Source: Streptomyces sp. NBC_01235
Lineage (GTDB): Bacteria; Actinomycetota; Actinomycetes; Streptomycetales; Streptomycetaceae
Direction of reading: 5' to 3'
DNA: 64,000 nt
Assembly: GCF_035989285.1 (NCBI RefSeq)
Contig: NZ_CP108513.1
Location: 10,230,001 to 10,294,000, forward strand
In this document: in pieces, positions 12,762 through 29,321 of the stretch
How the letters are laid out: each line of letters starts with the position of its first letter
Position numbering within the stretch: position 1 is the stretch's first letter
The notes under the pieces: generated by a model
What the model saw: the letters and a program-made list of their open reading frames with translations, nothing else
Databases searched by the model: none
Told to the model about the DNA's origin: nothing
Made by a program: the position numbers and the translations under genes

Positions 12762-14678
12762 TTACCGCTTCAGGAGTCGTACCGACAGACCGTCTGCCGT
12801 GTACACGGGTACGGCCCGCAGCCGGTCGGAGTTCAGCTCCACGCGGTCGAACTGACCGCGCAGCGCGCAGGCGTCGATCACCGGGACGGTCGTCCCCGCG
12901 GCCGGCGGCTGCTCGGCGTCGAGGCGCAGCGACAGCACCGAGCCCCGGTCGAGCCGGACCCGCCCGGACACGGTGAGGACGGGCCCGTGGTGTCCACGCA
13001 GCGTCAGGTCCAGCACCGCGCCGGACTCCTGGGCCCACGCTCCGCGCACCCGCACCGGCGCGCCCGCGCGCAGCGTGCCGCCGGCCAGCCGCACATCGCC
13101 CTGGCCGAGGGCGCCTGCGTGCCCGGCGACGAGCACGCCCTCCTCCAGCACGGTGCCGCCGTGGTAGCGGTTGTGCCCGGTCAGGGTGAGCGTGCCGGAG
13201 CCGCGCTTGGTCAGACCGCCCTCGCCCTCGATGTCGTTGCGCCAGGCGTCGGCCGCCTGGAAGCCACCCTTGGACGCGTCCAGGGTGACCGTGACGTCGG
13301 AGTCGAAGGCGCCGTAACCGTCTGCCGCCGCGAACAGGTTGAGCCGGCCCCACTGCTCGAAGCCGTCCAGCAGGACGTACCCGGAGGGCAGCGCGGTCGT
13401 GCGCAGCACCTCGCGGCGCTGGGCCGCGGTGAGGTACGGCAGCCGGGTCTCCAGCAGCACCTCGGCGCCCTTGGGCACGGTGAGCGGCTTCTGGCGGCCC
13501 TCCCGCTCGAGGACATAGGTCAGCCGGGGGAGCGCCGCACGCTCGTTGGCTTCGCGGTCGGCGTAGGCGTCGCCGGCGTCCGAGTGGGCGTAGTCGTACA
13601 GGGTGTCGGCCGTCGTGCCGGTCTTTGCCTGGAAGTAGGCGAGGGCCTGGGCGCGGGCCGCGGCCTTCAGCTCGGCGTTGGCCGGGTCGGCGAGCGTGGC
13701 GGCGGCGAGGGCGGTGGCCATGACGCGGCCGCCGATGACGTCCACCGTGGAGTGCATGCCCGAGACGATCCGGGTGTGGCTGAGCTCCAGTGCGCGGGTC
13801 ACCAGCTCCTGGAACCGCTCGGGCACGGCATACGCGAACGCCAGCGACGCCAGGTGGAAGGCGTTGGTGTGGCCGCTGGGGTAGCCGCCGTCGTCGACGG
13901 GGGAGGTGCTGCGCTGACGCAGCAGCTGGGGGGCGACGACCACCTTCGAGTCGTAGACGGGGTAGCCGAGCGCGTCCTTCCTGCCGGTGTCGACGACCTC
14001 GCTGTCCTCGTTCATGCGCCACGGGCGCGGGTACTGGAAGGCGTACTTGCCCGGGTTGCCGGAGGCGTACGGGCCGCGCACCGTGTCGACCAGCTCGGCC
14101 ACCTTGCCGAGCGCGGAGTCGTGTGAGCCGGCGCCGAGCGCGGAACCCGCCGGGGCGCCGGCCGGCACCGCGTCGTCGATCTTGGCGGGCGGGGTGCCGT
14201 CGGGCGCGCCGGTGATCGACGTGACCGCCTTGGCGCCCGCCCTGTACAGGTCGGCCAGCGGACCCAGGCCCGCGATCATCGCGTAGCTCTGGTGCTGGCG
14301 GTCGTAGACGAACGCCTCCTTGGCCTGCGCGTCCGTGCGGGCGGTGGTGATCCGGGCGCAGTAGCGCATGTTGGCGCGCAGCACCTCGGGCCGCAGCGGC
14401 GTTCCGGTGTTCCAGGCGGCACCGGTCTTCCACACCTGCGCGAACCCGCCCAGGACCCGCACCACGGCGTTGGTCTCGGGCGTGAGGTTCGTCATGACGT
14501 TCGTCTTGTAGTCGTCGACGAACGGGAGCGGGGCGGTGGCGGCCTTGGCGTCGGCGGCGGCCAGCCAGGAGACCAGCGTCGGGGCGGCGACCAGGGCCGC
14601 CGAGCCACCGAAGGAGACCTTCAGGAAGCGCCTTCTGTTCACGGCCGAGGGGGAGCTGAGCCCGGCGGGTGACGGCAT
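12762..14678 (-). CDS. Tat-exported PAP2/vanadium haloperoxidase-like protein with beta-strand repeat
   Basis: The product is 638 aa. A twin-arginine signal (NRRRFLKVSFGG, residues about 14-25) begins the protein. The PAP2/haloperoxidase metal-oxoanion site is visible as GGYPSGHTNAF and, later, SGMHSTVDVIGGR, with the essential His, Ser and Arg residues. The C-terminal third (from about residue 475) is a beta-rich region including an autotransporter-associated beta-strand repeat (LTKRGSGTLTLTGHNRYHGGT). The family covers acid phosphatases and vanadium haloperoxidases; the sequence alone does not decide between them, and phosphatase is the safer guess. It probably acts outside the cell. Confidence 0.8.
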   Translation of the reverse strand: MPSPAGLSSPSAVNRRRFLKVSFGGSAALVAAPTLVSWLAAADAKAATAPLPFVDDYKTNVMTNLTPETNAVVRVLGGFAQVWKTGAAWNTGTPLRPEVLRANMRYCARITTARTDAQAKEAFVYDRQHQSYAMIAGLGPLADLYRAGAKAVTSITGAPDGTPPAKIDDAVPAGAPAGSALGAGSHDSALGKVAELVDTVRGPYASGNPGKYAFQYPRPWRMNEDSEVVDTGRKDALGYPVYDSKVVVAPQLLRQRSTSPVDDGGYPSGHTNAFHLASLAFAYAVPERFQELVTRALELSHTRIVSGMHSTVDVIGGRVMATALAAATLADPANAELKAAARAQALAYFQAKTGTTADTLYDYAHSDAGDAYADREANERAALPRLTYVLEREGRQKPLTVPKGAEVLLETRLPYLTAAQRREVLRTTALPSGYVLLDGFEQWGRLNLFAAADGYGAFDSDVTVTLDASKGGFQAADAWRNDIEGEGGLTKRGSGTLTLTGHNRYHGGTVLEEGVLVAGHAGALGQGDVRLAGGTLRAGAPVRVRGAWAQESGAVLDLTLRGHHGPVLTVSGRVRLDRGSVLSLRLDAEQPPAAGTTVPVIDACALRGQFDRVELNSDRLRAVPVYTADGLSVRLLKR

Positions 14679-14870: not shown

Positions 14871-15779
14871 TCACAGAAGCGAACGCGCCAGCGCCACCGC
14901 GCCCTCTACCGGCGGCACGGTGAGCGGCTGCGGCCGGGCCCCCGGCACCGCGTCGGCGAGCGCGGCGGTGAACGCCTCGTAGAGCGCCGGCTGACCGAGC
15001 ACGGTGCCGCCCGCCACGACCACGTCGTCGACCGGGACCCCGCGCGTGGCGAGCCGGGTGACGAGCGCGCCGAGCGCCCGACCGGCCTCGGCGATCACGG
15101 TCTTGGCGAGCGCGGAGTCCTCGGCGGCGGCCGCGAAGACGACGGGGGCGTGCCGTCCCCACTCGGCGGAGACGTCCGTGGCGCTCTCCAGAGCCGCGCC
15201 GAGCGCCGGGACCTCGGGCACGCCGAAGGCGGCGACGAGGCCGTGGGCCAGGGCGTCGGGCGCCTCTCCGCGATCGTGGGCCGCCCATACGGCCCGGGCC
15301 GCCTCGCGGACCAGACCGGCGGCGCCGCCCTCGTCGCCGAGGACCGCGCCCCAGCCGCCCACCTGGACGGGGCCGCCGTCGGGCAGTCTGCCCACCGCCA
15401 CCGAGCCGGTGCCGGCGACCAGGCCGACGCCCTTGTCCAGTCCGGCGGCGGGAACGAGCAACTCGGCGTCGCCCACGATGTGCGTGGGAACGCCGAGAAG
15501 TTCCTGAAGCGCGACACGGATCTGCGCGCACTGCAGGGGGGTCTCGCAGGCGTGCGCCCCCACCGCGAGCGCGACGGGGTGTGCGGCCTCGGGCAGTGCC
15601 TCGTGGACGAGGCCGGCCAGCCAGTGTGCGGCGGCGACCGGGTCGTGCGGCCGCCAGCCGCTGCTGGCGCGGACGTGGTCGGACACGACGTCGTCGCCCG
15701 CGGTTGCGCGCAGATGCGTCTTGGTACCGCCCACGTCGACGCCGACCACGAGGGGGCACGAAGGGGGAGAGTCCTGCAC
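14871..15779 (-). CDS. BadF/BcrA-type sugar kinase (N-acetylglucosamine kinase-like)
   Basis: The product is 302 aa from a GTG at 15779 behind GAGG. The N-terminal phosphate-1 motif is VGVDVGGTKTHL; GTGSVAVG (phosphate-2) and GGWGAVLGDEGG follow, then the adenosine motif VVVAGGTVLG. This is the ASKHA fold of the BadF/BadG family, whose Streptomyces members include N-acetylglucosamine and other amino-sugar kinases. It is transcribed divergently from a ROK repressor, and its promoter overlaps an inverted repeat. An ABC sugar importer lies beyond that repressor. It probably phosphorylates the imported sugar; the identity of that sugar is not fixed by the sequence. Confidence 0.8.
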   Translation of the reverse strand: MQDSPPSCPLVVGVDVGGTKTHLRATAGDDVVSDHVRASSGWRPHDPVAAAHWLAGLVHEALPEAAHPVALAVGAHACETPLQCAQIRVALQELLGVPTHIVGDAELLVPAAGLDKGVGLVAGTGSVAVGRLPDGGPVQVGGWGAVLGDEGGAAGLVREAARAVWAAHDRGEAPDALAHGLVAAFGVPEVPALGAALESATDVSAEWGRHAPVVFAAAAEDSALAKTVIAEAGRALGALVTRLATRGVPVDDVVVAGGTVLGQPALYEAFTAALADAVPGARPQPLTVPPVEGAVALARSLL

Positions 15780-15921
15780 GGATCCTCTTTCGTCGTTGCA
15801 TGGAACTGCGACGGCGGGCGAACCGTGACCGAAGGAAGGCGAGCCTGGATGAACTCTTGAGCGAATTAGGGAAGCCCCGGGACGGGCCTCTGACGAAGCA
15901 CGGCAGGCGTATACCGTGAAG

Positions 15922-15945
15922 TTCGTTAGGAAGTTAACTAACGAA
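15922..15945. promoter_or_regulatory. Inverted repeat, probable ROK repressor operator
   Basis: Perfect 8-bp arms TTCGTTAG (15922-15929) and CTAACGAA (15938-15945) flank 8 bases. The stretch is AT-rich against the genome. It lies between the divergent kinase and ROK genes and overlaps the kinase promoter (15931-15959). Confidence 0.65.
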
Positions 15946-15959
15946 GTACAGTGCGTCAA
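15931..15959 (-). promoter_or_regulatory. Probable sigma-70-type promoter of the sugar kinase gene
   Basis: The minus strand shows TTGACG (15954-15959), a 17-base spacer and TAACTT (15931-15936), close to the principal sigma factor consensus. The inverted repeat covers the -10 and the downstream part of the spacer, so a bound repressor would block it. The rest of the gap (15780-16099) holds no reading frame with coding character. Confidence 0.5.
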
Positions 15960-16099
15960 GAGGAATCGCGCACTCGACCACCGGGAGGCCCGTCCGGGCC
16001 GCCGCGGGGCGGGAACGCGCGACGTCGGAGCATCCCATCGCCGCAGCCCGCCGAGACGATCGGCCGGGCGCGCGGCCCTGTACCCGTGTGGGGGAAACT

Positions 16100-17245
16100 G
16101 TGGAACTCGACGTGGTGGAAGCCCCCCGCCTGACCGAGAGCGCGAGCGCGGTGTTCGCCGTGCTGGCCCAGGCGGGCAGCGCGACCCGGCCGCAGCTCGC
16201 CAGCCTGGCCGGGCTGTCCAAGCCGACGGTGTCCTCCGCCGTGGCGGAACTGGAGGCCGCTCGGCTCGCCGCGCACTCCGGGACCTCCTCCAGCGGCACC
16301 GGCCGCTCGGCCGCCGTCTACTGCCTCGGACCGGCCGCCGGCGCGGTGCTGGCCGTGGATCTCGGCCCGGCGCGCACCCGGGTCAGGGGCTGCGCGCTGG
16401 ACGGCGCCCTGCTCGCCGAGGCCACCGCCTCCCGGATGGACGCCGCCGACGCCGTGCGCGAGGCGCTCGCCGCGCTGCCCGGCGGCGTTCCGCTGCGCTC
16501 CATCGTCGTCGCCGTCGGTGACGTCGCGGCGCGGGACCTGCGGGGCAGCGGCATGCGCCCGGCGACCGAGAAGGCGGGCCCGGTCTTCGACGCCATGGCC
16601 GTCGCGCTGCCGCCGGGCGTGCCCGTCCACCTGGAGAACAACGTCAACTGCGCGGCGCTCGCGGAACTGCACGAGGGCGCCGCCCGGGGCCGCCACACCT
16701 TCGGCTATCTGCGGATCGGCGTCGGCATCGGTCTCGGCATCGTCGTCGGAGGGCAGGTGCTGCGCGGATCGAACGGGGCCGCCGGAGAGCTGGCCAGACT
16801 GCCCTATCCCTGGGACGACGGCCGTGAGCCGCGCCAGGAGGCCCTGGAGGAGTACATCGGCGCCCGCTCCCTGCTGCGCCGGGCCAGGGAGGCCTGGGAG
16901 GTCGCGGACGGGCCGTGCCCGCGCACCACCGAGCGGCTCTTCGCCCTCGCCGGGGAGGGCAGAGCCACGGCCGGCGCGGTCGTCGGCCGCCATGCCGTGG
17001 ACGTGGGCCGTCTCGCCGCCGCCGTGACCGCCGTGCTGGACCCGGGTCTCATCGTGCTCGGGGGCAGCACCGGCGCGGATCCGCAGCTCCTGCCCGGGGT
17101 GCGGGCCGAGCTGGCGCGGCTGAGCTGGCCCACCGAGGTGGTCAGCAGCACGGTCGGGGATTCCGGCACCGTCACGGGCGCCGCACGGCTCGCGGTCGCC
17201 CGGGGAGTCCAAACCGTGACCGAGACCGCGCGGGCCAAGGATTGA
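16100..17245 (+). CDS. ROK family transcriptional repressor
   Basis: The product is 381 aa from a GTG at 16100, chosen because GGGGGA precedes it by 5 bases; another in-frame GTG lies at 16088. A winged helix at about residues 10-65 (RPQLASLAGLSKPTVSSAVAEL) is followed by a ROK sugar-binding domain with VLAVDLGPARTRVRG, HLENNVNCAAL and a GVGIGLGIVVGG phosphate-loop-like segment. ROK repressors release DNA on binding a sugar or phosphosugar. The usual ROK zinc motif (CxCGxxGC) is not visible: the corresponding region reads PYPWDDGREPRQEALE. It is divergent from the kinase and immediately precedes the importer genes, so it is probably the locus regulator. Confidence 0.85.
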   Translation: MELDVVEAPRLTESASAVFAVLAQAGSATRPQLASLAGLSKPTVSSAVAELEAARLAAHSGTSSSGTGRSAAVYCLGPAAGAVLAVDLGPARTRVRGCALDGALLAEATASRMDAADAVREALAALPGGVPLRSIVVAVGDVAARDLRGSGMRPATEKAGPVFDAMAVALPPGVPVHLENNVNCAALAELHEGAARGRHTFGYLRIGVGIGLGIVVGGQVLRGSNGAAGELARLPYPWDDGREPRQEALEEYIGARSLLRRAREAWEVADGPCPRTTERLFALAGEGRATAGAVVGRHAVDVGRLAAAVTAVLDPGLIVLGGSTGADPQLLPGVRAELARLSWPTEVVSSTVGDSGTVTGAARLAVARGVQTVTETARAKD

Positions 17246-17273
17246 CGGCCCGCGACTCGGTCTGCCAATGTCC

Positions 17274-17290
17274 GGACAAGCGCTTTCTAA
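17274..17290. promoter_or_regulatory. LacI-type operator-like palindrome upstream of the sugar importer
   Basis: GACAAGCGCTTTCTAAGTC (17275-17293) contains the AAGCGCTT core typical of LacI-family operators and GAC...GTC outer bases. It lies about 230 bases before the binding-protein gene. No LacI gene is in the window; a remote regulator or the ROK protein could use it. The 277-base gap shows no gene. Confidence 0.35.
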
Positions 17291-17522
17291 GTCGGCCGGG
17301 ACGTCGGCTTGGGGTGAGCGTCCCGCCCGTACTCGACGTACGGCAACCGCGCCAGGGCGTACTTGTGCGGCGACGGCCACAGCGGCCGGGGACCCTCTCC
17401 CGTCAGGATGACGCGGCCGGGCGAGGCCGCGCCCTCGGAAAGCAAACCTTCCTGCAAAATGCACCTGTGCCGCCTCTGTCGGCGCCGTGCTCCGTCCCCT
17501 ACGACGAAACAAGGGATCGAAG

Positions 17523-18845
17523 ATGACCAATGTGGGTGTGCGGCGCTCTCGCCGACTCGGCCGCGGCGGCATACGCCGCGTGGTTCCCCTCGCTGCGGTG
17601 GCCACGGCAGGTGCCCTGCTGCTCTCCGCCTGCGGGTCGGGATCCGACTCGGGCGGTACCTCCAAGTCGCTGACGTTCTGGATCTCCACGGTTCCGGGGC
17701 AGGACGCGGGCTGGAAGAAGATGGTGGCGCAGTACAAGAAGGAAACCGGCGTCAACGTCAAGCTCGTCAACATCCCCTACGACGGCTACCCGACGAAGCT
17801 GCACAACGCCGCGCAGGCGAACTCCCTGCCCGACGTGGCGGCCGTGCCGGCGCTGGACCCGATCTGGTCGAGCAAGCTGATCGACCTCAGCTCCATCGCC
17901 AACAACAAGACCAACAAGATCAACGCCAACTTCCTCGCCAAGGACTCGTCCGGGAAGGTGCTGTCCATCCCCTCGGACGTCACCGCGTCCGGCCTGTTCA
18001 TCAACAAGACGCTGTTCGAGAAGGCCGGCGTCGCCGTCCCGACCTCGCCCCAGAACACCTGGACCTGGACGGACTTCATCAAGGCGGCGGACACGGTCCG
18101 GGAGAAGACCGGCGCCAAGTACTCCCTGACGTTCGACCAGTCGCCGTCCAGGCTCCGTGCCATGGTGTACGAGATGGGCGGGCAGTACGTCCACGCTGAC
18201 TCCTCCGGCAAGTTCTCGGTGGACGCGGCGACCAAGAAGGCCGTGAACTACTTCGTCGGACTGAACGACGACAAGACCATGCCGAAGTCGGTGTGGACCA
18301 GCGGCGCCGACCCGTCGGCCATGTTCCAGAGCGGTGACGTGGTCGCCTACTGGTCCGGCGTGTGGCAGGTTGCCTCCTTCGCGGAGAGCATCAAGAAGTT
18401 CGAGTGGGCGAGCGTCCCGACTCCCGCCCAGCCTGTGCAGGCCAGCGACGTCAACAGCGGCGGCATGACGGTGGGCTTCAACAACAACGGCGACGCGGCC
18501 ACCGCCGCGACGAAGTTCCTGTCCTGGCTGTACGAGCCGGCCCACTACCAGGCGCTGTGTGAGGCGTCCGGGTTCCTGCCGGTCGAGAGCGGTCTGAACC
18601 CGAAGTACCCCTTCACCTCCGAGGCGGCGCAGGCGGCGTTCAAGCTGTACAACGAGTCGATCCCGCTCTACGCCCCGATCTCCGGCTACTTCAGCGGCGC
18701 GCAGACGAACTGGGTGCTGAAGGGCAAGAGCCTCACCGAGGACCCGACCAAGACGGAGCTCGGCAAGGCGATCAACGGCCAGCAGTCGGCCGACAAGGCC
18801 CTGGAGAACATCGTGGCCGGCTACAACCAGCAGGTCGGCGGCTGA
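17523..18845 (+). CDS. ABC transporter sugar-binding lipoprotein
   Basis: The product is 440 aa. A positively charged N-terminus, a hydrophobic stretch and the lipobox LLLSACGS (Cys near residue 39) mark a lipoprotein. The mature part has the family-1 extracellular solute-binding fold (LTFWISTVPGQDAG, GLFINKTLFEKAGV, WSGVWQVASF). Downstream come two MalF/MalG-type permeases, so it is the capture subunit of a carbohydrate importer. It has no ATPase gene; Streptomyces sugar importers of this kind normally share the MsiK ATPase. The gene follows the ROK repressor. The substrate is unknown. Confidence 0.92.
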   Translation: MTNVGVRRSRRLGRGGIRRVVPLAAVATAGALLLSACGSGSDSGGTSKSLTFWISTVPGQDAGWKKMVAQYKKETGVNVKLVNIPYDGYPTKLHNAAQANSLPDVAAVPALDPIWSSKLIDLSSIANNKTNKINANFLAKDSSGKVLSIPSDVTASGLFINKTLFEKAGVAVPTSPQNTWTWTDFIKAADTVREKTGAKYSLTFDQSPSRLRAMVYEMGGQYVHADSSGKFSVDAATKKAVNYFVGLNDDKTMPKSVWTSGADPSAMFQSGDVVAYWSGVWQVASFAESIKKFEWASVPTPAQPVQASDVNSGGMTVGFNNNGDAATAATKFLSWLYEPAHYQALCEASGFLPVESGLNPKYPFTSEAAQAAFKLYNESIPLYAPISGYFSGAQTNWVLKGKSLTEDPTKTELGKAINGQQSADKALENIVAGYNQQVGG

Positions 18846-18858
18846 TCGTAGGCCAGAG

Positions 18859-18897
18859 GGCCGGGCGGCGGGGTCGAGACAACACCGCCGCCCGGCC
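18859..18897 (+). terminator. Strong stem-loop between binding-protein and permease genes
   Basis: A perfect 13-bp GC stem (18859-18871 with 18885-18897) surrounds a 13-base loop, starting 14 bases after the stop of the binding-protein gene. No T-run follows. Such intercistronic hairpins in sugar-importer operons reduce read-through and protect the upstream message, giving more binding protein than permease. Confidence 0.65.
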
Positions 18898-18969
18898 TGG
18901 GCGCCCACGCATGCCGGGCTCATGGCGTGAGCCCACAGGAATCCATTCGACCAGCACGGAGTCAGGAAG

Positions 18970-19890
18970 ATGACAAAACGCGCCTCGGACGTGTCCGCCG
19001 TGTCCGCGAGCCCGCCCAGGAGACGCAGTAAGTACATCCTTGCGCCGCTCGTCCTCATCGCGGCCAATGTTGTGCTCTTCGCGCTGTTCTTCGTCTGGCC
19101 GGCGGTGATCGGGCTCGTCTACTCCTTCACGAACTACACGGGTGTGGGGGCGTTCCAGTTCATCGGACTGGACAACTACCACAACCTGTTCGGGGACTCC
19201 ACCTTCTACGACGCGCTGACCCGGACGCTGCTGTACGCCGTGCTCTTCGTACCGCTGAACTTCGCGCTCTCGCTGCTCGCCGCCAACCTGGTGGTGGGCA
19301 AGCACGCCAAGGGCGCGTCGGTCGCCCGCGTCATCTTCTTCATCCCGTGGCTTCTGTCGCCCATTGTCGTGGGTGTCCTGTGGCGGTGGCTGTTCGGTGA
19401 GAACTTCGGACTGGTCAACTACGTCATCGAGAAGCTCGGCGGAAGTGCCGTTCCGTGGCAGTCGAACGCGGACCTGTCGTTGATAGTGGTGGTGATGGCG
19501 GCATCCTGGGCCTGGACGGGTTTCTCGATGCTGCTGTTCATCGCGGCGATCAAGAACGTACCGGTGTCGTACTACGAGGCGGCCTCCCTCGACGGCGCCG
19601 GCCCCTGGCGGCAGTTCATCAGCATCACGCTGCCGAGCATCGCTCCCACCTCGTTCATCGTCATCCTGCTCAACACGATCAACGCGATGAAGGAATACCC
19701 GGTGTTCGTCGCCCTCAACAACGGCGGACCCGGCACGTCGAACAACCTGCTTGTCCAGTACATCTATGAGACCGGCTTCAAACGGGGCCAGATCGGCTAC
19801 GCGAGCGCCGCGTCATTCGTGCTCATGCTCATCCTGATGGCCGTCGCGATCATCCAGCTGATCGTCAACCGGCGGGTGGAGAACCGATGA
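18970..19890 (+). CDS. ABC sugar permease, MalF type
   Basis: The product is 306 aa with six predicted membrane helices, starting at about residues 25-47 (YILAPLVLIAANVVLFAL). The cytoplasmic coupling (EAA) loop is present as EAASLDGAGPW near residue 205. It pairs with the next permease, whose start codon overlaps its stop (ATGA at 19887-19890), implying translational coupling and a heterodimeric channel. GGAAG lies just before the ATG. It imports the sugar captured by the upstream lipoprotein. Confidence 0.93.
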   Translation: MTKRASDVSAVSASPPRRRSKYILAPLVLIAANVVLFALFFVWPAVIGLVYSFTNYTGVGAFQFIGLDNYHNLFGDSTFYDALTRTLLYAVLFVPLNFALSLLAANLVVGKHAKGASVARVIFFIPWLLSPIVVGVLWRWLFGENFGLVNYVIEKLGGSAVPWQSNADLSLIVVVMAASWAWTGFSMLLFIAAIKNVPVSYYEAASLDGAGPWRQFISITLPSIAPTSFIVILLNTINAMKEYPVFVALNNGGPGTSNNLLVQYIYETGFKRGQIGYASAASFVLMLILMAVAIIQLIVNRRVENR

Positions 19891-20789
19891 CAACCACAGA
19901 CATGCCACGCCCGGTCGACGCCGATCCCGGACGGGCCGTCTCCAAGAAGCGGCCCCGCAGGGCGGGTAGTGGTGGGCTCCGGCGGGCGGTGCCCGCGACG
20001 ACACTGCTGTGGATCCTGGCGTGCCTGTACGGGTTGCCGGTGCTGTGGTTCATCCTCAGCTCCCTCAAGCCGGCCAGCGACCTGTTCTCCTATCCGCTGA
20101 CGGTGGTTCCGCACAACCCCACCCTGTCGGGTTACCTGACGGCGTGGCGCAGTGCCAACTTCTCCCAGTACTTCATCAACACGGCCATCGTGTGCGTGAT
20201 CACGACGATCCTCACGGTGGGAGTCAGCTGCTGCACCGGGTACGCGCTGGCCAAGTACGACAACAAGTGGCTCAAGGTCTTCTTCATCTGCATCCTGGCC
20301 ACCACGATGCTGCCGTCTGAGGTCATGCTCGCCCCGGAGTTCCTGGTGGTCCGCAACCTCGGCCTCTACAACTCGTTCGCCGGCATCATCCTCCCGGCCG
20401 TGCTCACCGCGACCGGATGCTTCATGTTCCGCCAGTTCTTCCTGACGGTTCCCGACGAACTCGTGGAGGCCGCACGCATCGACGGCGCCCGCGAACTGTC
20501 GATCTTCCTGCGGATCATGGTGCCACTCTCCCGGCCCATCATGCTGACCCTCGCCATCCTGTCCTTCCAGTGGCGGTGGAACGACTACATCTGGCCGCTT
20601 CTGATGCTCAACGACCCCAACAAGTTCACCGTGCAGATCGGCATCCAGAGCATCGTCGGCGCGCAGAACATCAACTGGTCGGTACTGCTCGGCGCATCGG
20701 TCATCTCCATGATCCCTCTGATCGCGATCTTCCTGGTGTTCCAGCGCTACGTCATGGGCGCCGACATCAACGCCGGACTGAAGGACTGA
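19887..20789 (+). CDS. ABC sugar permease, MalG type
   Basis: The product is 300 aa with six membrane helices; the first follows a charged N-terminus of about 30 residues rich in Lys and Arg. The EAA loop reads EAARIDGARELS near residue 195, and the C-terminus ends in the usual MalG-like GADINAGLKD. It overlaps the preceding permease by 4 bases and is followed after 2 bases by the next gene, so the whole group is one operon. Confidence 0.93.
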   Translation: MTTTDMPRPVDADPGRAVSKKRPRRAGSGGLRRAVPATTLLWILACLYGLPVLWFILSSLKPASDLFSYPLTVVPHNPTLSGYLTAWRSANFSQYFINTAIVCVITTILTVGVSCCTGYALAKYDNKWLKVFFICILATTMLPSEVMLAPEFLVVRNLGLYNSFAGIILPAVLTATGCFMFRQFFLTVPDELVEAARIDGARELSIFLRIMVPLSRPIMLTLAILSFQWRWNDYIWPLLMLNDPNKFTVQIGIQSIVGAQNINWSVLLGASVISMIPLIAIFLVFQRYVMGADINAGLKD

Positions 20790-20791
20790 CC

Positions 20792-22510
20792 TTGCCCACC
20801 CCGCTCGACCACGAGTTCGTCCGCGCGGTGGCCGGCGCCGCCGACCGGCCGGCCGCCCCGCTGGCGGCCGGTCCTGGCGAGGAACCGGCCGGTGTGACCC
20901 ACCGCGTTCTGGCACGCCGGGTGAAGACTCTGGTCGCGGCGTACCGTTCCCCGGACTCGGCACTGCACGGCAGCAGGCAGGCCGTCGCCGCCGCGATGAC
21001 CCACCTCCGCGCTCTGCGGGCCGCGCAGACCACCACCGGCCTCTTCGCCGGCGGCGACAACGTGCAGTCACCGCCTGACTCCGCGTTCACCGTCAACGAC
21101 GTGTGCGACGCGCACGTCCTCGCCGCCGGCGCGGGGCCGGAACTGCACGACGTCGCGGCCGTGCTCGCCGAGATCGCCGGCGCCGCCACCGAGAGTCTCC
21201 TGACCGGTGGGGTGCACACCCCGAACCACCGCTGGGAACTGTCCGCGGCGCTGGCCCGGCTGCACCGGTCGTTCCCGGACGACCGGCTGCTCGACCGCGT
21301 CGAGGAGTGGCTCGCCGAGGGCGTCGACATCGACGCGGAGGGCCTGTACTCGGAACGCAGCGCCAACTACGCGGCCCACGTGTCCAACCCTTCGCTGCTC
21401 CTGCTGGCCGAGGTCCTCGGCCGCGCCGACCTGCTGTACGCCGTCGAACGCAATCTCGCCACGACCCTGGACCTCATCAGGCCGGACGGCACGGTGGAGA
21501 CCGTCCACTCGCGACGGCAGGACCAGAACCGCCCGTTCCCGCTGACGCCCTACCTGCCGCACTACCGGCTGCTCGCGATCCGCACCGGCCGGGGCGACTT
21601 CGCCCGGGTGGCGCGGCTGGCGGCCGCCGGCGGCATCGACGACCCCGACCTGCTCGCCGAGACCCTCCTCACCCCGGACCTGTGCTGCGCCCTGCCGGCC
21701 CCGGCCGCGGAGGCACTTCCGCGCGACCGGTACCTCACCACAGCACGCCTCGCCGCACGCGCCTCGGCCACCGCGCACACGGTGGTGTACGGCGGCTCCG
21801 ACGTGCCCGAGCACCGGCGCATCCGCTCGGGCCTCGCCTGCAACCCCACCTTCCTGCGCCTGTTCGCCGGCAACGCCGTCCTCGACGCGGTCCGTCTTTC
21901 GCGGGGGTTCTTCGACCTGGGCCCGTTCCGCGCCGCCGACATGCAACGCCTCGCCGACAGCCGCTACCGGCTCACCGAAACCCTCTCGGCCGCCTACTAC
22001 CAGCCGCTCCCGCCGGACCAGCGGCGGGACGACGGCGCCTACCGGATGGCGGACGAAGGACGCTTCTCGGCCGCGATGGCCTTCCCGGACCGGCCTCGGG
22101 ACGAGGTCTCACACACGACCCGCGTCGAGGTGGACCTGAGGGACGACGGTGCCGACCTGCGGATCGACATCAGCGGACCACGGGTGCCCTGGGCCCTCGA
22201 ACTGACCTTCCGGCCCGGCGGCGTGCCAGAGGGCGCCGTACCGATAGGCGACGGACGCTGGTGCCTGACGACCGGGCCGATGACCTACCGGGTCGGTGAC
22301 GACGAGATCCGGGTCGAGGCCGACATCGAGGCAGGCGAATCGCTTGCCGGGCCGGACCGGAGCGACGTACTGCGGTACGACCCGGGGCAGGACCACACCG
22401 TGGTGGGCGGTACCGACGCGACGACCGGGAACCGCGTCTACATCGGTGGACATGGCCCGCAGACACTGACCGTCGCACTGCACGCCCGCCGGCCCGCACC
22501 CGTCGTGTGA
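20792..22510 (+). CDS. Large alpha/alpha-toroid-like protein, possible polysaccharide lyase or hydrolase (unassigned)
   Basis: The product is 572 aa from a TTG at 20792 with AAGGA 7 bases upstream; the gap to the permease stop is 2 bases. There is no signal peptide, so it should be cytoplasmic. The first ~400 residues are helical with Tyr/Asn/His-rich loops (SERSANYAAHVSNPS at about 187-201, ETVHSRRQDQNRPFPL at about 230-245), resembling the toroid of heparinase-II/III-like lyases. The last ~150 residues are beta-rich (VEVDLRDDGADLRIDI). Position in the importer operon implies that it acts on an imported oligosaccharide, perhaps a uronate. I do not recognise a named family; the fold call is by pattern only. 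Confidence 0.6.
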   Translation: MPTPLDHEFVRAVAGAADRPAAPLAAGPGEEPAGVTHRVLARRVKTLVAAYRSPDSALHGSRQAVAAAMTHLRALRAAQTTTGLFAGGDNVQSPPDSAFTVNDVCDAHVLAAGAGPELHDVAAVLAEIAGAATESLLTGGVHTPNHRWELSAALARLHRSFPDDRLLDRVEEWLAEGVDIDAEGLYSERSANYAAHVSNPSLLLLAEVLGRADLLYAVERNLATTLDLIRPDGTVETVHSRRQDQNRPFPLTPYLPHYRLLAIRTGRGDFARVARLAAAGGIDDPDLLAETLLTPDLCCALPAPAAEALPRDRYLTTARLAARASATAHTVVYGGSDVPEHRRIRSGLACNPTFLRLFAGNAVLDAVRLSRGFFDLGPFRAADMQRLADSRYRLTETLSAAYYQPLPPDQRRDDGAYRMADEGRFSAAMAFPDRPRDEVSHTTRVEVDLRDDGADLRIDISGPRVPWALELTFRPGGVPEGAVPIGDGRWCLTTGPMTYRVGDDEIRVEADIEAGESLAGPDRSDVLRYDPGQDHTVVGGTDATTGNRVYIGGHGPQTLTVALHARRPAPVV

Positions 22511-22559
22511 CCCCGACGAACCACGCCATGGCCACCCCAGGCATGAAGGGTTGATCCCC

Positions 22560-24392
22560 GTGTACCTCACGCACCAGCGCGGCCCGCTGCACGACCTGCC
22601 GGACACCCCGCAGGCGTACGACGCGGTCCTCGCGGACGTCACCGAGCAGGCGCTGGCCCGGCTGACGCCGGAAGGAAACCTCGAACACCCCGACTGCCTC
22701 GACGACATCGGCGACACCTCCCTCGGCATCACGTCCCTGCTGGCCCTGGCCTGGCAGCGCACCAAGGACCCGCGCCTGCCGGAGGCGGTGCGCCGCAGCC
22801 TCGCCTTCCATCTGCGCGAGCGGGTCTACCGGGAGGACAACCCCGGCTACCCGAACCTCACCGTGCGCGACTCGGGTCTCCCGTACGCCCGGTACGTCCT
22901 CGAGGCGGGCGCGCACCCCATCGGTGACTGGCCGAGCACGGTGTGGGCGCTGCTCCAGGCCGTCGACGTCCTCGACACGGCCGACGGACCGGTGGACGAC
23001 GCGCAGCGCGCAGAACTGCTGGAGGTGGCGCGCGGCTACTGGAGCTGGCTGACCGAGGCGACCTTCTTCAACCCGCAGGAGGCGGGCAACCAGGCGATCG
23101 GCTGCGTGGTGGGCGGTCTGATGCTGGCGCGCCATCTGCCCGCTTCCGACGGAGCCCGGGTCCGGTCCCGCGCACTCGCGCTGTACACCGAGGAGATCCG
23201 CGCGCACCGGGTCCGCGACCGGGGCGCCCTGCTGCCCCCCGAGCACGGCGGCGCCTACGACAACAACTACGGCCCGATCTCCCTCTCCTTCCTCGCCCAG
23301 GCCCACCGGGTGAGCGGCGAGGAGATCTTCGCCGAGGACGGCGACGCGCTCGCCCGCTACATCGACGCCCGCCTCACCGGCGGCGGCTTCGACAAGGGCG
23401 GCCCCCGCTACAGCGAGCAGCACTCCGCCTTCGAGTCGGTCCTCGGGCTGCGCTACTTCGGCGCCCGTATCGGCTCCGACCTGGGCCGTTACCGGGGCGA
23501 CAGCCGCTGGGCCCGGCACGCGGCCAAGGCGGACGGCGGGGTCGACGGGCACTTCGCGTGGATGCTGGTCTGGCAGATCCAGGACACCACGCGCTGGCAT
23601 CGCGAGCCCTCCCCGCAGGCCGCACGGCACCAACTGCGGGCCGGCACGGTCTCGGTGGCCTTCGACAACCGGATGACGCCGGCGGTGATCGAGGCGGCCG
23701 GCGCCTACTACCTGCCCGCCGCCGTCAACCGTCAGCACGGCTTCGGCCCCGTCACCGACGGCTTCCTGCTGTGCCGCCCCATGGGCGAGGTCCGCGTGCG
23801 CGACGTCCGCGCCGACGGCCTGACCGCCAAGCTGGTCACCAAGCCGGTCGTCGGCCGTGACCATGTCCTGCGTCATGTGCGCTCCCTGTACGTCACCGAC
23901 GGCACCACCCTGTGGACCACGGTCGCCGTGGAACGCCTCGACGGCACGCCCTACCTGCTGGCCGGCCTGCCGTACGCCGAGGACGACGGCGACCGGGTCC
24001 GTCGTACGGCACGCGCATCCGTCTCCTCGGGGGGCACCCTGCGTCTGACGCACCCCGAGGCGACCGGCGACGACTTCTTCGACGCCCGCGCCGAACTCAC
24101 CCAGGAACAGGCCGCCTTCGCCCTCGCGGAGGACCCGCGCGGCTACGGCAACCCCGACGAGGGCTGGAAGCACCTGGTCGCCTCGACCGCCCTGGAGGCC
24201 GGGCCGGTCGCCGACGCCCCTGACGACCTGCACGTCTTCGCGGTGCGGTACGGCACCGAGGAGCCGTTCACCGTGTCCGTGGCGTGGGGCGAGGAGGGCC
24301 TGACCGTGACCACGGACGCCTTCACCGCCGTACTCGGACCGGACGACGCGCACGCCGAGCCGGAGCTGACACTGCGCGCCGTCAGCGACTGA
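22560..24392 (+). CDS. Second alpha/alpha-toroid-like protein of the importer operon (unassigned)
   Basis: The product is 610 aa from a GTG at 22560; GAAGGG precedes it by 9 bases, whereas the TTG at 22551 has no room for a ribosome site. There is no signal peptide. Residues about 25-330 are helical with glycan-binding-looking loops (HGGAYDNNYGPISLSFLA near 230, GGPRYSEQHSAFESVLGLRY near 285), and the rest (from about 360) is beta-sheet. The architecture parallels the preceding gene, so the two may have related or sequential activity on the same glycan. No named family is recognised. Its end overlaps the convergent DUF6461 gene by 11 bases. Confidence 0.6.
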   Translation: MYLTHQRGPLHDLPDTPQAYDAVLADVTEQALARLTPEGNLEHPDCLDDIGDTSLGITSLLALAWQRTKDPRLPEAVRRSLAFHLRERVYREDNPGYPNLTVRDSGLPYARYVLEAGAHPIGDWPSTVWALLQAVDVLDTADGPVDDAQRAELLEVARGYWSWLTEATFFNPQEAGNQAIGCVVGGLMLARHLPASDGARVRSRALALYTEEIRAHRVRDRGALLPPEHGGAYDNNYGPISLSFLAQAHRVSGEEIFAEDGDALARYIDARLTGGGFDKGGPRYSEQHSAFESVLGLRYFGARIGSDLGRYRGDSRWARHAAKADGGVDGHFAWMLVWQIQDTTRWHREPSPQAARHQLRAGTVSVAFDNRMTPAVIEAAGAYYLPAAVNRQHGFGPVTDGFLLCRPMGEVRVRDVRADGLTAKLVTKPVVGRDHVLRHVRSLYVTDGTTLWTTVAVERLDGTPYLLAGLPYAEDDGDRVRRTARASVSSGGTLRLTHPEATGDDFFDARAELTQEQAAFALAEDPRGYGNPDEGWKHLVASTALEAGPVADAPDDLHVFAVRYGTEEPFTVSVAWGEEGLTVTTDAFTAVLGPDDAHAEPELTLRAVSD

Positions 24393-25058: not shown

Positions 25059-25703
25059 TCAGACGGGTATCCGCACCACCAGGTCCGCCCGTTCCTTCGT
25101 CGCCGCGACCAGCTCGGCGTTGTGCTGGTCGCTTCTGGCCACCCAGGCCACCGCTTCCTCCTGCCCCTTGCCGAACTCCACGTGCCGGGCGACCAGTCGG
25201 CGCACGCGCTCCTCCTCGTCCGTCTCGCAGAACCACACCTCGTCCAGCTCCGCCCGCACCCGCTGCCACGGGCCGGTGCCGAGGAGGAGGTAGTTGCCCT
25301 CCGTGACGACCAGCCGGGCCGTCGGCGCCACCGGCACGGCCCCGGCGATCGGCTGCTCCAGGACCCGCTCGAAGCCGGGCGCGTACACCACGTCCGTGCT
25401 GTCGGCGGGCTCCTCACGCAGCCGGCGCAACAGGGCCGCGTACCCGGCCGCGTCGAAGGTGTCGGGCGCGCCCTTGCGATCCCGGCGGCCGAGGCGGTCC
25501 AGTTCTGCGTCGGCGAGGTGGAAGCCGTCCATCGGGACGTGCGCGACCCAGGGCTCCCCGGTGCCGTTCAGCTCCCGCACCAGGCGCTCGGCGAGGGTCG
25601 TCTTGCCCGCGCCTGGGCTGCCGGCGATACCGAGGAGCGCACGCCCGCCGCCGTCCCCGGCGAGGGAGCGGGCGCGTGTGAGCAGGTCGTCGAAAGTGAG
25701 CAC
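25059..25703 (-). CDS. P-loop nucleoside/sugar kinase family protein
   Basis: The product is 214 aa from a GTG at 25703. A Walker A motif (GIAGSPGAGKTTLAERL, residues about 24-40) and PMDGFHL (about 57-63) are the hallmarks of the uridine kinase/pantothenate kinase-like group, including fructose-transport-associated kinases. TEGNYLLLG matches the substrate-proximal strand, and VFEFGKG-type residues near 170 the lid. Members phosphorylate a nucleoside, pantothenate or sugar with ATP; the substrate cannot be assigned here. The gene stands 41 bases downstream of the DUF6461 start on the same strand. No strong ribosome site is visible. Confidence 0.75.
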   Translation of the reverse strand: MLTFDDLLTRARSLAGDGGGRALLGIAGSPGAGKTTLAERLVRELNGTGEPWVAHVPMDGFHLADAELDRLGRRDRKGAPDTFDAAGYAALLRRLREEPADSTDVVYAPGFERVLEQPIAGAVPVAPTARLVVTEGNYLLLGTGPWQRVRAELDEVWFCETDEEERVRRLVARHVEFGKGQEEAVAWVARSDQHNAELVAATKERADLVVRIPV

Positions 25704-25758
25704 ACAGCAGAGTGTCGCAGTCTCCTGGAAGGAGACCCACAACGAAAGGAGGACGCCC

Positions 25759-26154
25759 GTGTCCGACGACGAGACGCAGATCCGCACGCTGATCACCCGC
25801 TGGGCCGACGCCGTCCACCGGGGCGACCTCGACACCGTCCTCGACCATCACGCGGAGGACCTGGTGATGTACGACGTGCCGGCGCCCCACGAGGGCATCC
25901 GGGGCCTGGCCGCCTACCGGGCGACCTGGCCGCCGTTCTTCGTCTGGCAGGCCCAGGGCGCCCGCTTCGACATCGACACCCTGGACGTCACCGCCGGTCA
26001 CGACGTCGCGTACGCCCATGCCCTGCTGCGCTGCGGCACACCCGAGGAGCTCGCCGCGTGCCCCACGCTGAGGCTGCGGCTCACCTTCGGTCTGCGCAAG
26101 GAGCGCGGCCGCTGGCTGATCGCGCACGAGCACCACTCCTTCCCGCACGACTGA
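25759..26154 (+). CDS. SnoaL/NTF2-like small protein
   Basis: The product is 131 aa from a GTG at 25759 with AAAGGAGG upstream, a decisive start. It has an NTF2/SnoaL cone fold pattern: helices (IRTLITRWADAVHRGDLD), VLDHHAEDLVMYDVP, and later beta strands ending in WLIAHEHHSFP. Members are isomerases, dehydratases or ligand-binding proteins. It is divergent from the kinase gene (55 bases between starts). Function unknown; a ligand-binding or ketosteroid isomerase-like role is typical of the fold. Confidence 0.75.
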   Translation: MSDDETQIRTLITRWADAVHRGDLDTVLDHHAEDLVMYDVPAPHEGIRGLAAYRATWPPFFVWQAQGARFDIDTLDVTAGHDVAYAHALLRCGTPEELAACPTLRLRLTFGLRKERGRWLIAHEHHSFPHD

Positions 26155-26229
26155 CCGCGCACGACACGGCGCCCAGATGTGGTGTGCGCCACACAGGTGA
26201 GGGGCCCGATGCGGGGGAACCAGGCCTGT

Positions 26230-26982
26230 ATGACGACGATGCTCGGTCTTCCCGAAGCCATCCAGGCCTGCCTCTTCGACCTCGACGGGGTGGTCACCCG
26301 GACGGCCGTGGTGCACGCGGCTGCCTGGAAGGAGACCTTCGACGCGTTCCTGCACGCGCGCGTGGGCGAGGGTTTCCAGCCGTTCGACGCGGGCGCCGAC
26401 TACGACGAGTACGTCGACGGCCGCCCCCGCGCCGACGGCGTCCGCACCTTCCTCGCCTCCCGCGGCATCGAACTCCCCGAGGGCGAATCCGACGACCCGC
26501 CGGACGCGCAGAGCGTCCACGGTCTCGGCAACCGCAAGAACGAGCTGCTCCTGGACCGGATCCGCACCCAGGGCGTCGAGGCCTACGACGGCACCCTGCG
26601 CTACGTCGAGGCGGCACGCGCGCGTGGCCTGCGGACGGCGATCGTCTCCTCCAGCGCCAACACCCGCGACGTGCTGCGCTCGATCGGCGCCGAGCACCTC
26701 TTCGAGGTACGGATCGACGGCGTCGTGGCGGCCGAGCGGGGCCTGCCGGGCAAGCCGCGCCCCGACACGTTCCTGGCCGCCGCCCGCGACCTAGGTGTCG
26801 AGCCGCCGGGGGCGGCCGTCTTCGAGGACGCGCTGGCCGGGATGGACGCGGGCCGCGCCGGGAACTTCGGGTATGTCGTCGGCGTTGACCGGGTCGGGCA
26901 GGCCGACGCGCTGTACGCGCACGGCGCGGACGTCGTCGTGAAGGATCTGGACGACCTGCGTGGGCAGGGAGGGCGGGCGTGA
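26230..26982 (+). CDS. pgmB: Beta-phosphoglucomutase family HAD hydrolase
   Basis: The product is 250 aa from the ATG at 26230; an ATG at 26209 with a closer GAGGGG is possible. The HAD nucleophile motif CLFDLDGVVTRT lies near residue 18; motif II is SSSANT and motif IV is FEDALAGMDAGR. These fit beta-phosphoglucomutases, which convert beta-glucose 1-phosphate to glucose 6-phosphate. The next gene overlaps by 4 bases (GTGA) and encodes a GH65 phosphorylase that releases beta-glucose 1-phosphate, so the pair forms a complete disaccharide phosphorolysis route. Confidence 0.85.
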   Translation: MTTMLGLPEAIQACLFDLDGVVTRTAVVHAAAWKETFDAFLHARVGEGFQPFDAGADYDEYVDGRPRADGVRTFLASRGIELPEGESDDPPDAQSVHGLGNRKNELLLDRIRTQGVEAYDGTLRYVEAARARGLRTAIVSSSANTRDVLRSIGAEHLFEVRIDGVVAAERGLPGKPRPDTFLAAARDLGVEPPGAAVFEDALAGMDAGRAGNFGYVVGVDRVGQADALYAHGADVVVKDLDDLRGQGGRA

Positions 26983-29321
26983 TCACTCACCGGTCGTACG
27001 CCGTGGAGCCCTGGTGCGTGCGCGAGACGGAGCTCAACCTCGACGTCCTGGCCCAGAGCGAGTCCGTGTTCGCCCTCTCCAACGGACACGTCGGCTGGCG
27101 CGGCAACCTCGACGAGGGCGAACCGCACGGCCTGCCCGGCGCCTACCTCAACGGGGTCCACGAACTGCACCCCCTGCCCTACGCCGAGGCGGGCTACGGG
27201 TATCCGGAGTCCGGGCAGACGGTCATCAACGTCACCAACGGCAAGGTCCTGCGGCTGCTGGTCGACGACGAGCCCTTCGACCTGCGCTACGGCCGGCTCG
27301 TCGCGCACGAGCGGGTGCTCGACCTGCGGCGGGGCGTCCTGGAGCGGACCTGTGAGTGGACCTCGCCGGCCGGGTCCACGGTCCGGGTGCGCTCGATCCG
27401 GCTGGTCTCGCTCACCCAGCGGGCCGTCGCCGCCGTCGCCTACGAGGTGGAGGCCGTCGGCAGCCGCTCCCGGGTGGTGATCCAGTCCGAGCTGGTCACC
27501 AACGAGAGCCTGCCCGACCCGAACGGCGACCCGCGCGCGGCCCGCGCCCTGAAGTCGCCGCTGGAGCCGGAGGAGGACATCGCGGTGGGCAGCCGGCTGC
27601 GGCTCGTCCACCGCACCAAACGCAGCGGGCTGCGGGTCGCCGTGGCCGCCGACCACACCGTCACCGGACCCGACCGGACCACCACCGACAGCGAGAGCAA
27701 CGTCGACGTCGCCCGGTTCACCGTCACCTCCGTGCTGGAGCCCGGTGAGCGGCTGCGCGTGGAGAAGCTCGTCGCCCACGGCTGGTCCGGCGCCCGATCC
27801 CGCCCCGCGATGAGCGACCAGGTGGAGGCGGCCCTCGCGGCGGCCGGACACAGCGGCTGGGACGGTCTACTCGACGACCAGCGTGACTACCTCGACGACT
27901 TCTGGTCCCGCGCGGACGTCGAGGTCGACGGCGACGAGGAGATCCAGCAGGCCGTCCGCTTCGCTCTCTTCCACGTCCTGCAGGCCGGCGCCCGCGCCGA
28001 ACAACGTGCCATACCCGCGAAGGGGTTGACCGGTTCCGGCTACGACGGCCACGCCTTCTGGGACACCGAGACGTTCGTGCTCCCCCTGCTGACCTACACC
28101 GCGCCCGGCGCCGTCGCCGAGGCCCTGCGCTGGCGGCAGAACACCCTGCCCGCCGCCCGCGAGCGCGCCACCCAACTCGGGCTGAGCGGCGCCGCGTTCC
28201 CTTGGCGGACCATCGAGGGCTCGGAGGGCTCGGCGTACTGGCCGGCCGGGACCGCCGCCTTCCACGTCAACGCCGACATCGCCGACGCCGTCGTACGGTA
28301 TGTCGCCGCGACCGGGGACGCGGAATTCGAACGGAGCACGGGCGTCGAGCTGTTGGTGGAGACCGCCCGGCTGTGGCGCTCGCTCGGCCATCACGACGCG
28401 CACGGCACGTTCCACATCGACGGGGTCACCGGACCCGACGAGTACAGCGCGGTCGCCGACGACAACACCTACACCAACCTGATGGCCCGCGCGAACCTCC
28501 TCGCCGCAGCCGACGCCGTCGAACGCCACCCGGAGGAGGCCGCCCGGCTCGGTGCGGACGAGGAGGAGAGCGCGGCCTGGCGGGACGCGGCCGAAGCGGT
28601 GCACGTGCCCTACAACCACGAACTCGGCGTACACGAACAGCATGCGGGCTTCACCCGCTACCAGCGCTGGGACTTCGCCGGCACCCGCCCCGACCAGTAC
28701 CCCCTGCTGCTGCACTTCCCGTACTTCGACCTCTACCGCAAACAGGTCGTCAAACAGGCCGACCTGGTCCTGGCGATGTACACCTGCGCGAGCCACTTCG
28801 ACGACGAACAACTCGCCCGCAACTTCGCCTACTACGAGCCGCTGACCGTCCGCGACTCCTCCCTCTCGGCCTGCTGCCAGGCCGTGATCGCCGCGCAGGC
28901 CGGCCATCTGCGCCTGGCCTACGACTACACGGCCGAGGCCGCGCTGATGGACCTGGCCGACCTGGAGAACAACACCCGCGACGGACTGCACATCGCCTCC
29001 CTGGCGGGTACCTGGATGGCGCTGGTCGCCGGTTTCGGCGGGCTGCGCGGCGACGGCGACGGCCTGCGCTTCGCACCCCGGCTGCCCGAGACGTTCAGCC
29101 GACTCGCCTTCAGCGTCCAGCTCCTCGGCCGCCGCCTGCGCGTGGAGATCGGCCCGGACAAGACCGCCTACACCCTGCTGTCCGGCCCACCTCTGACGAT
29201 CCGTCACCACGGCACGCCGGTAAGGGTGAACGGTGACGGACCCGTCGTGCGCGCCATGCCGCCCGCACCGACGCGACCAGCCCCCGGGCAACCCCCGCAC
29301 CGGGGGCCGAACACCCGCTGA
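26979..29321 (+). CDS. GH65 family disaccharide phosphorylase
   Basis: The product is 780 aa, the usual GH65 length, starting at a GTG overlapping the preceding HAD stop. A beta-sandwich N-terminal domain leads into an alpha/alpha barrel with the general acid in GPDEY (Glu at about residue 488). The phosphate site region contains KQADLVLAM, typical of phosphorylases of this family. Maltose, trehalose or kojibiose phosphorylase are possible; all yield beta-glucose 1-phosphate. Substrate cannot be chosen from sequence alone. The coupled HAD mutase supports phosphorolysis over hydrolysis. Its C-terminal tail is Pro-rich. Confidence 0.88.
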   Translation: MITHRSYAVEPWCVRETELNLDVLAQSESVFALSNGHVGWRGNLDEGEPHGLPGAYLNGVHELHPLPYAEAGYGYPESGQTVINVTNGKVLRLLVDDEPFDLRYGRLVAHERVLDLRRGVLERTCEWTSPAGSTVRVRSIRLVSLTQRAVAAVAYEVEAVGSRSRVVIQSELVTNESLPDPNGDPRAARALKSPLEPEEDIAVGSRLRLVHRTKRSGLRVAVAADHTVTGPDRTTTDSESNVDVARFTVTSVLEPGERLRVEKLVAHGWSGARSRPAMSDQVEAALAAAGHSGWDGLLDDQRDYLDDFWSRADVEVDGDEEIQQAVRFALFHVLQAGARAEQRAIPAKGLTGSGYDGHAFWDTETFVLPLLTYTAPGAVAEALRWRQNTLPAARERATQLGLSGAAFPWRTIEGSEGSAYWPAGTAAFHVNADIADAVVRYVAATGDAEFERSTGVELLVETARLWRSLGHHDAHGTFHIDGVTGPDEYSAVADDNTYTNLMARANLLAAADAVERHPEEAARLGADEEESAAWRDAAEAVHVPYNHELGVHEQHAGFTRYQRWDFAGTRPDQYPLLLHFPYFDLYRKQVVKQADLVLAMYTCASHFDDEQLARNFAYYEPLTVRDSSLSACCQAVIAAQAGHLRLAYDYTAEAALMDLADLENNTRDGLHIASLAGTWMALVAGFGGLRGDGDGLRFAPRLPETFSRLAFSVQLLGRRLRVEIGPDKTAYTLLSGPPLTIRHHGTPVRVNGDGPVVRAMPPAPTRPAPGQPPHRGPNTR

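Follow-up and report, generated by a model that had tools for sequence, protein, structure and literature searches.

The window analysed here, a 64,000-nucleotide stretch of Streptomyces sp. NBC_01235 (contig NZ_CP108513.1, positions 10,230,001 to 10,294,000) from an 11.09 Mb single-contig genome, carries at 14871–24392 a locus that combines a sugar kinase, a repressor, an ATP-binding cassette (ABC) importer and two large proteins, P1 (572 amino acids, aa) and P2 (610 aa). P1 and P2 look like new families on a known lyase scaffold, within an uptake locus that is otherwise of an ordinary kind, and on balance we lean towards a locally regulated system for the uptake and cytoplasmic beta-elimination of a uronate-bearing oligosaccharide. 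The genes named in an initial annotation of this DNA, together with the sizes of both proteins, were confirmed by coordinates and, apart from P1 and P2, by Pfam matches (Table 1), and the papers listed from the open-licence PMC literature included none on the locus.

Predicted folds of P1 and P2

Neither P1 nor P2 gave a Pfam or NCBIfam match at E ≤ 1, and single-sequence searches of the PDB returned chance-level matches only (best E of 1.2 for P1 and 0.31 for P2), bearing out, for these libraries, the initial annotation, which could name no family for either protein. Profiles built from each family matched no PDB sequence of the polysaccharide lyase (PL) families PL35, PL33 or PL8, and none of 82 P1-family members matched the Pfam Hepar_II_III models (PF16889 and PF07940) at E ≤ 0.1. 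The predicted structure of P1, with a predicted local distance difference test score (pLDDT) of 95, consists of an (alpha/alpha)n toroid followed by an antiparallel beta-sheet domain; its nearest folds are PL35, PL33 and PL8, and the best Foldseek matches are glycosaminoglycan lyases. The AlphaFold2 model of P2 (pLDDT 76.6, predicted template modelling score 0.75) also has a toroid and beta-sheet layout, with PL15, PL39, PL35 and PL17 as the nearest folds and the PL15 structure 3a0o as top Foldseek match (E = 3.7e-7). These models and comparisons agree with the lyase-like layout that the initial annotation had proposed for the two proteins.

Compared with 19 actinobacterial Hepar_II_III proteins, the P1 profile gave P values of 3.4e-5 to 1.3e-4 (reversed control, 0.43) and the P2 profile 1.8e-4 to 1.2e-2 (reversed control, 0.063). 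The P1 alignment sets N145-H146 and E188-x4-Y193 on conserved Hepar_II_III positions, and all 82 rows of the family have N145, H146, E188 and Y193. In P2, N177 comes from the weak profile alignment, Y233 from the motif E228-x4-Y233 together with distance, and H393, a candidate beta-domain histidine at fitting spacing, from distance alone; N177, Y233 and H393 are invariant in all 70 rows. The models confidently place P1 in the superfamily of toroid and antiparallel beta-sheet lyases, and P2, with moderate confidence, in the same toroid and beta-sheet superfamily.

Several closer assignments were tried and rejected, namely membership of PL8 by sequence (hhalign against 11 PL8 proteins, P = 0.28 for P1 and 0.073 for P2), mutual homology of P1 and P2 (profile comparisons with probabilities of 0.2% and 2.6%, P = 0.018), and a set of PDB sequence matches that represent repeats or chance (7rdr and 1xxa for P1; BFT chains, by single sequence at E of 0.31 and worse, and OspA/PSI-G, by profile, for P2).

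At least 1284 proteins match P1, and at least 494 match P2, at E ≤ 1e-3. Many of the P1 relatives among the matches listed are actinobacterial, alongside a Roseiflexaceae bacterium and Paenibacillus, and several bear the UniProt name 'Heparinase II/III-like protein'. The host genome itself holds, at C1:181333-181743 (6322-6741 in locus L115), a C-terminal beta-sheet fragment of a P1-family protein, scoring 50–57% to the Streptomyces members P0310, P0315 and P0316 versus 32% to P1; no N-terminal part was seen at E ≤ 1e-3 among the 15 best matches.

Comparison with known lyases

PL35 (GAGase II and VII; 8khv and 8khw) gives the closest full-length fold match for P1 and one of the closest for P2, sharing with both the two-domain layout, a length of about 580 residues and the Asn and Tyr catalytic positions, which in P2 are candidates. 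It differs from them in sequence, with no match to it among PDB sequences by either profile and 10–12% identity over the structural alignments, and has a beta-domain His, where P1 has no invariant one. The families PL33, PL12, PL21, PL15, PL17 and PL39 (Pfam Hepar_II_III) have Asn and Glu-x4-Tyr in common with P1 and, as candidate residues, with P2, and the candidate Asn, Tyr and His of P2 are spaced as in PL33, whereas neither P1 nor P2 has an invariant equivalent of the His-x-His found in 17–18 of the 19 actinobacterial Hepar_II_III members. In PL8, the His sits close to the Tyr (His233, Tyr242).

Published catalytic triads include N192/Y246/H401, one of several, in PL35 (PMC12088678) and N238/Y291/H444 in PL33 (PMC11848413). 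In PL15 and PL21, according to PMC11848413, H311 and H202 serve as the base and the Tyr as the acid on L-iduronate, while PL12, PL21 and PL33 use Tyr as acid/base on D-glucuronate. Judged by this usage, P1 and P2 may act on uronates of different configuration.

Conservation of the locus

Table 1 Features of the locus in the window
Feature	Position	Strand	Remarks
BadF-type sugar kinase	14871-15779	-	GTG start; PF01869, 57.1 bits (cut-off 31.5)
Palindrome TTCGTTAG-N8-CTAACGAA, likely ROK operator	15922-15945		between the divergent kinase and ROK genes
ROK-family repressor	16088-17245	+	PF00480, 89.8 bits; divergent to kinase
Conserved block, importer promoter region	17260-17289	+	palindrome TGTCCGGACA adjoining AAGCGCTTT
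Importer solute-binding lipoprotein	17523-18845	+	PF13416, 111.7 bits
Importer permease A	18970-19890	+	PF00528, 69.7 bits; best NCBIfam row UgpA, below cut-off
Importer permease B	19887-20789	+	PF00528, 68.4 bits; best NCBIfam row UgpE, below cut-off
P1, toroid and beta-sheet, lyase-like	20792-22510	+	572 aa; TTG start; candidate residues N145, H146, Y193
P2, toroid and beta-sheet, lyase-like	22560-24392	+	610 aa; GTG start; candidate residues N177, Y233, H393

P1 starts 2 nt past the stop codon of permease B, and P2 starts 49 nt past P1 on the strand shared with the importer. The locus counts that follow are from the best 80 of 166 P2 loci. Kinase, repressor, window-type importer, P1 and P2 are all present, in conserved order, in 53 of the 80; nine have the window-type importer without P1 (one cut ahead of the kinase), and 11 have the repressor and another importer but lack P1 (in one, the kinase is missing too). 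Two loci, L025 and L037, keep importer, P1 and P2 with no kinase match and with an unrelated ROK gene (25–27% identity) on the other strand, L076 and L078 have P2 without kinase, repressor or importer, and contig ends truncate the remaining three. P1 is present and P2 absent in the G023 locus, and G193 and G381 keep P1 with P2 in pieces only. P1 and P2 are therefore separable and not an obligate pair, P2 going mostly with the kinase and repressor and P1 mostly with the importer. The pairing described by the initial annotation holds in the window and in the 53 complete loci and is broken in some others; the importer is not consistently split from the two genes, and no non-carbohydrate family was matched by either protein. 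Remnants of P2 lie beside a retained P1 and importer in L121 (7546-8375) and L119 (11264-11455), which suggests independent loss of P2.

Matches to P2 occur in 41 of 199 Streptomyces genomes drawn, six of them with fragments only (G193, G381, G390, G396, G427 and G428), and all strong matches among 296 genomes of the class are in Streptomyces; three matches outside this genus (E of 0.009–0.09) were set aside as chance. At present sampling, P2 looks confined to Streptomyces. Within the same 296 genomes, seven Streptomyces, out of at least 27, carry P1, and P2 is full in three of those seven, partial in two and absent from two. Six genomes of other genera, in three families, hold nine P1-like genes, and eight class-level P1 matches at E of 0.01–0.25, in eight further genomes, were set aside as chance. 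P1 was found in 8 of 149 genomes of the genus of G607 and in 3 of 22 of the family of G569.

Putative regulatory sites

The palindrome between the divergent kinase and repressor genes occurs once in the window (0.01 copies expected in shuffles), and its exact copy there is the sole site at ≤3 mismatches in the host genome, where the backwards pattern used as a control gave 2 per strand. Both arms are exact in 71 of the 80 loci, and in every one of the 11 that have another importer. Of the nine that lack exact arms, four are cut, L025 and L037 have a different ROK gene, two have no kinase/repressor module, and the last is L042; where the window-type repressor is present (73 loci), exact arms are missing only in L042 and the cut locus L046. 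Because the palindrome accompanies this repressor and is missing where another ROK gene stands, it is likely, judging from sequence, to be the ROK operator. It is not repeated ahead of the importer, the one site in the genome being the kinase/repressor promoter. The 'shared operator' of the initial annotation is thus a real palindrome between these two genes that was not found at the importer promoter, and a single regulon that takes in the importer and enzymes as well is a plausible conjecture.

The conserved block ahead of the importer is unique both in the window and in the host genome, and exact copies of its core stand in 73 of the 80 loci, among them the 11 that have a different importer. 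As the block is kept where the importer differs, this regulatory input seems to have persisted when the transporter was replaced. Scans for promoter and terminator consensus sequences gave no signal above shuffled sequence.

Proposed role

In the pathway that we favour, the ROK protein, in which a ROK domain is preceded by an N-terminal winged-helix match (MarR_2, 25.9 bits, cut-off 27), would let go of its operator upon binding a sugar ligand. The importer consists of a binding protein and two permeases with no ATPase gene alongside (none of the five plus-strand genes in 17523-24392 matches the ABC ATPase models), and we take it to be of the CUT1 class; with an ATPase encoded elsewhere, it would bring in an acidic oligosaccharide, which P1 and P2 would cleave in the cytoplasm by beta-elimination. 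The acting residues of P1 would be N145 to neutralise the carboxylate, H146 as base and Y193 as acid, arranged much as in PL15 and PL21. In P2, N177 would neutralise, and Y233, aided by the beta-domain H393, would serve as acid/base, as in PL33. The kinase would then phosphorylate a released sugar. As a hypothesis, this would constitute a new catabolic route.

A bolder form of this pathway, which we consider improbable, treats P1 and P2 as two unrelated new lyase families with complementary stereochemistry that would jointly dismantle a mixed acidic glycan imported intact, for instance a pectic oligosaccharide or one of the cell-wall teichuronic type. Anti elimination by P1 (Asn-His and Tyr) would act on L- or C5-inverted uronates and syn elimination by P2 (Asn, Tyr and beta-domain His) on D-uronates, while the interchangeable importer would pick the substrate.

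Several observations weigh against cytoplasmic beta-elimination of a uronate-bearing oligosaccharide. Full-length Foldseek rows of P1 have modest template modelling (TM) scores of 0.40–0.58 at large root mean square deviations of 8–15 A; for P2, TM scores are 0.35–0.50 over the 24 best rows, with full-length deviations likewise of 8–15 A. The highest Z rows are cellobiose 2-epimerases, aligned over the toroid only, a domain that by itself matches epimerases and glycosidases too. Over 82 rows, P1 has no invariant beta-domain His, unlike PL12, PL15, PL17, PL21, PL33, PL35 and PL39, and it has a shorter N-to-Y spacing (48) than those families. The P2 profile alignment is weak, its worse values lying just five-fold below the reversed control; P2 has a Gln at the usual position of the toroid His, after N177, and its model falls below pLDDT 50 over residues 218–237, which include Y233. 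No unsaturated-uronate genes were recognised within the locus, and the three PF04962 (KduI) matches in the genome, a family that presumably includes IolB, all lie outside it. The binding protein of the window has no close relative of known ligand among PDB sequences, in L025 and L037 a different ROK gene accompanies importer, P1 and P2, and L037 has a Gfo/Idh oxidoreductase gene in the place of the kinase.

Neighbours of P1 in other genera

We read 15 non-Streptomyces P1 loci (L156–L170), using a crude gene caller (GC bias by codon position) that missed some frames near P1. The same importer family lies nearby in 12 of them (permeases 57–63% and binding protein 36–43% identical) and is absent from L157, L162 and L163. 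Glycoside hydrolase (GH) genes recur near P1: GH38 in six loci (L156 by Pfam; L159, L160, L165, L166 and L167 by 63–83% identity to that of L156), GH2 in three (L158 by Pfam; L168 and L169 by 70–71% identity), GH95 by Pfam in two (directly 3' of P1 in L164 and about 5.5 kb off in L170), and a GH3-CBM6 gene in L162 and L163. In L157 and L161 no such glycosidase gene was recognised, though not all genes there were scanned.

These neighbours bear on an alternative in which P1, P2 or both hydrolyse a neutral or acidic oligosaccharide on a lyase scaffold, with P1 as a partner of the nearby GH38, GH2, GH95 or GH3 enzymes. The neighbouring families have mostly neutral-sugar substrates, P1 keeps many invariant or near-invariant acids (D96, D103, E176, D179, E188, D244 and D337) without a conserved beta-domain His, and the toroid domains also fit GH88, GH76 and GH127 chains. 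However, full-length fold matches favour polysaccharide lyases, and the Asn and Glu-x4-Tyr motif is retained; we regard hydrolysis as unlikely while giving it real weight.

The P1 relatives of L162 (8114-9955) and L163 (8093-9922) have an N-terminal signal of the twin-arginine translocation type (RRNFLRTAS) and no importer, and are possibly exported; a gene nearby is presumably LacI-like. Gfo/Idh/MocA oxidoreductase genes lie near P1 or its relatives in L157 (10556-11827), L165 (16599-19001, accompanied by a DUF993 gene), L168 (5351-6358) and L037 (2471-3655), and their recurrence might mark a shared sugar pathway.

Substrate clues

The kinase, of the BadF/BadG/BcrA/BcrD family, has as its nearest solved chain the N-acetylmuramic acid (MurNAc)/N-acetylglucosamine (GlcNAc) kinase 8zo3 (E = 7.2e-13), hinting weakly at an amino sugar; it scores below the NCBIfam equivalog cut-off for NagK of the SO3507 type (46.4 bits against 370). 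For the window binding protein the best solved relatives are 7bvt (E = 3.2e-19) and 8art (E = 2.3e-17).

The importer found in place of the window type is the same in all 11 loci concerned (binding protein 79–100% identical to that of L010). The nearest match of the L010 binding protein is YesO (5z6b), and it has a further relationship to 2uvg and 2uvh, which we take to be the oligogalacturonide-binding TogB. The window importer belongs to another family, its binding protein being 25% identical to the YesO-like one. In Bacillus subtilis, pectin oligosaccharide uptake of the YesOPQ-YesR type likewise has a cytoplasmic toroid enzyme, presumably the role of YesR, after an importer that lacks its own ATPase; the window differs in its ROK/BadF module and in lyase-like enzymes with a beta-sheet domain. 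According to PMC5730181, YesOPQ is induced by rhamnogalacturonan I and its deletion modestly slows growth on polygalacturonan and rhamnogalacturonan I, but the authors present this role as suggested and perhaps marginal, which weighs against the favoured reading. The initial annotation had offered amino-sugar or uronate chemistry: the uronate half gains indirect support, and the amino-sugar half has the kinase family as its one source.

That half is developed in a second alternative, similarly unlikely, that takes as substrate a disaccharide of hexosamine and uronate, of glycosaminoglycan or teichuronic-acid type, split by the lyases so that the BadF kinase phosphorylates the freed N-acetylhexosamine. 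The kinase's closeness to a MurNAc/GlcNAc kinase and the glycosaminoglycan lyases among P1's best fold matches speak for it, whereas the kinase scores far below the NagK cut-off, the alternative importer indicates pectic oligosaccharides, and L025 and L037 hold importer, P1 and P2 without the kinase. Moreover, the host genome has no Lyase_8_N match that would supply unsaturated glycosaminoglycan disaccharides; its one Hepar_II_III_N match lies outside the locus.

It is very improbable that P1 or P2 is a non-cleaving C5 epimerase or sugar 2-epimerase: both proteins have dermatan sulfate epimerase (6hzn) in their lists of two-domain matches and 2-epimerases lead the Z lists over the toroid, but the 2-epimerase rows span the toroid only, ending at about residue 350 in P2 and 300 in P1, and 2-epimerase membership was rejected. 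We give slightly less credence still to beta-elimination of a sugar first oxidised by a partner oxidoreductase, for which the substrate need not be a uronate; Gfo/Idh/MocA genes lie near P1 or its relatives (by Pfam in the four loci named above, in others by similarity), but the window locus has no oxidoreductase gene and such genes are widespread in sugar and inositol pathways.

Flanking genes

A PAP2-domain protein with a PATR repeat (12762-14678, minus strand) adjoins the kinase and has a relative of at least 60% identity in 75 of the 80 loci. The other flank (25059-29321) holds nucleoside-kinase-like, HAD hydrolase and GH65 genes, and a GH65 gene lies near P2 in 47 of the 80 loci.

Implications

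With this analysis, two families whose members are mostly named 'hypothetical' can be given a predicted fold, candidate catalytic residues and a probable function, and the exchange of importers opens a direct route to the substrate. If the favoured reading of uptake followed by cytoplasmic beta-elimination is true, lyases of the P1 and P2 scaffold acting on imported oligosaccharides would add to the glycan catabolism of Gram-positive soil bacteria.

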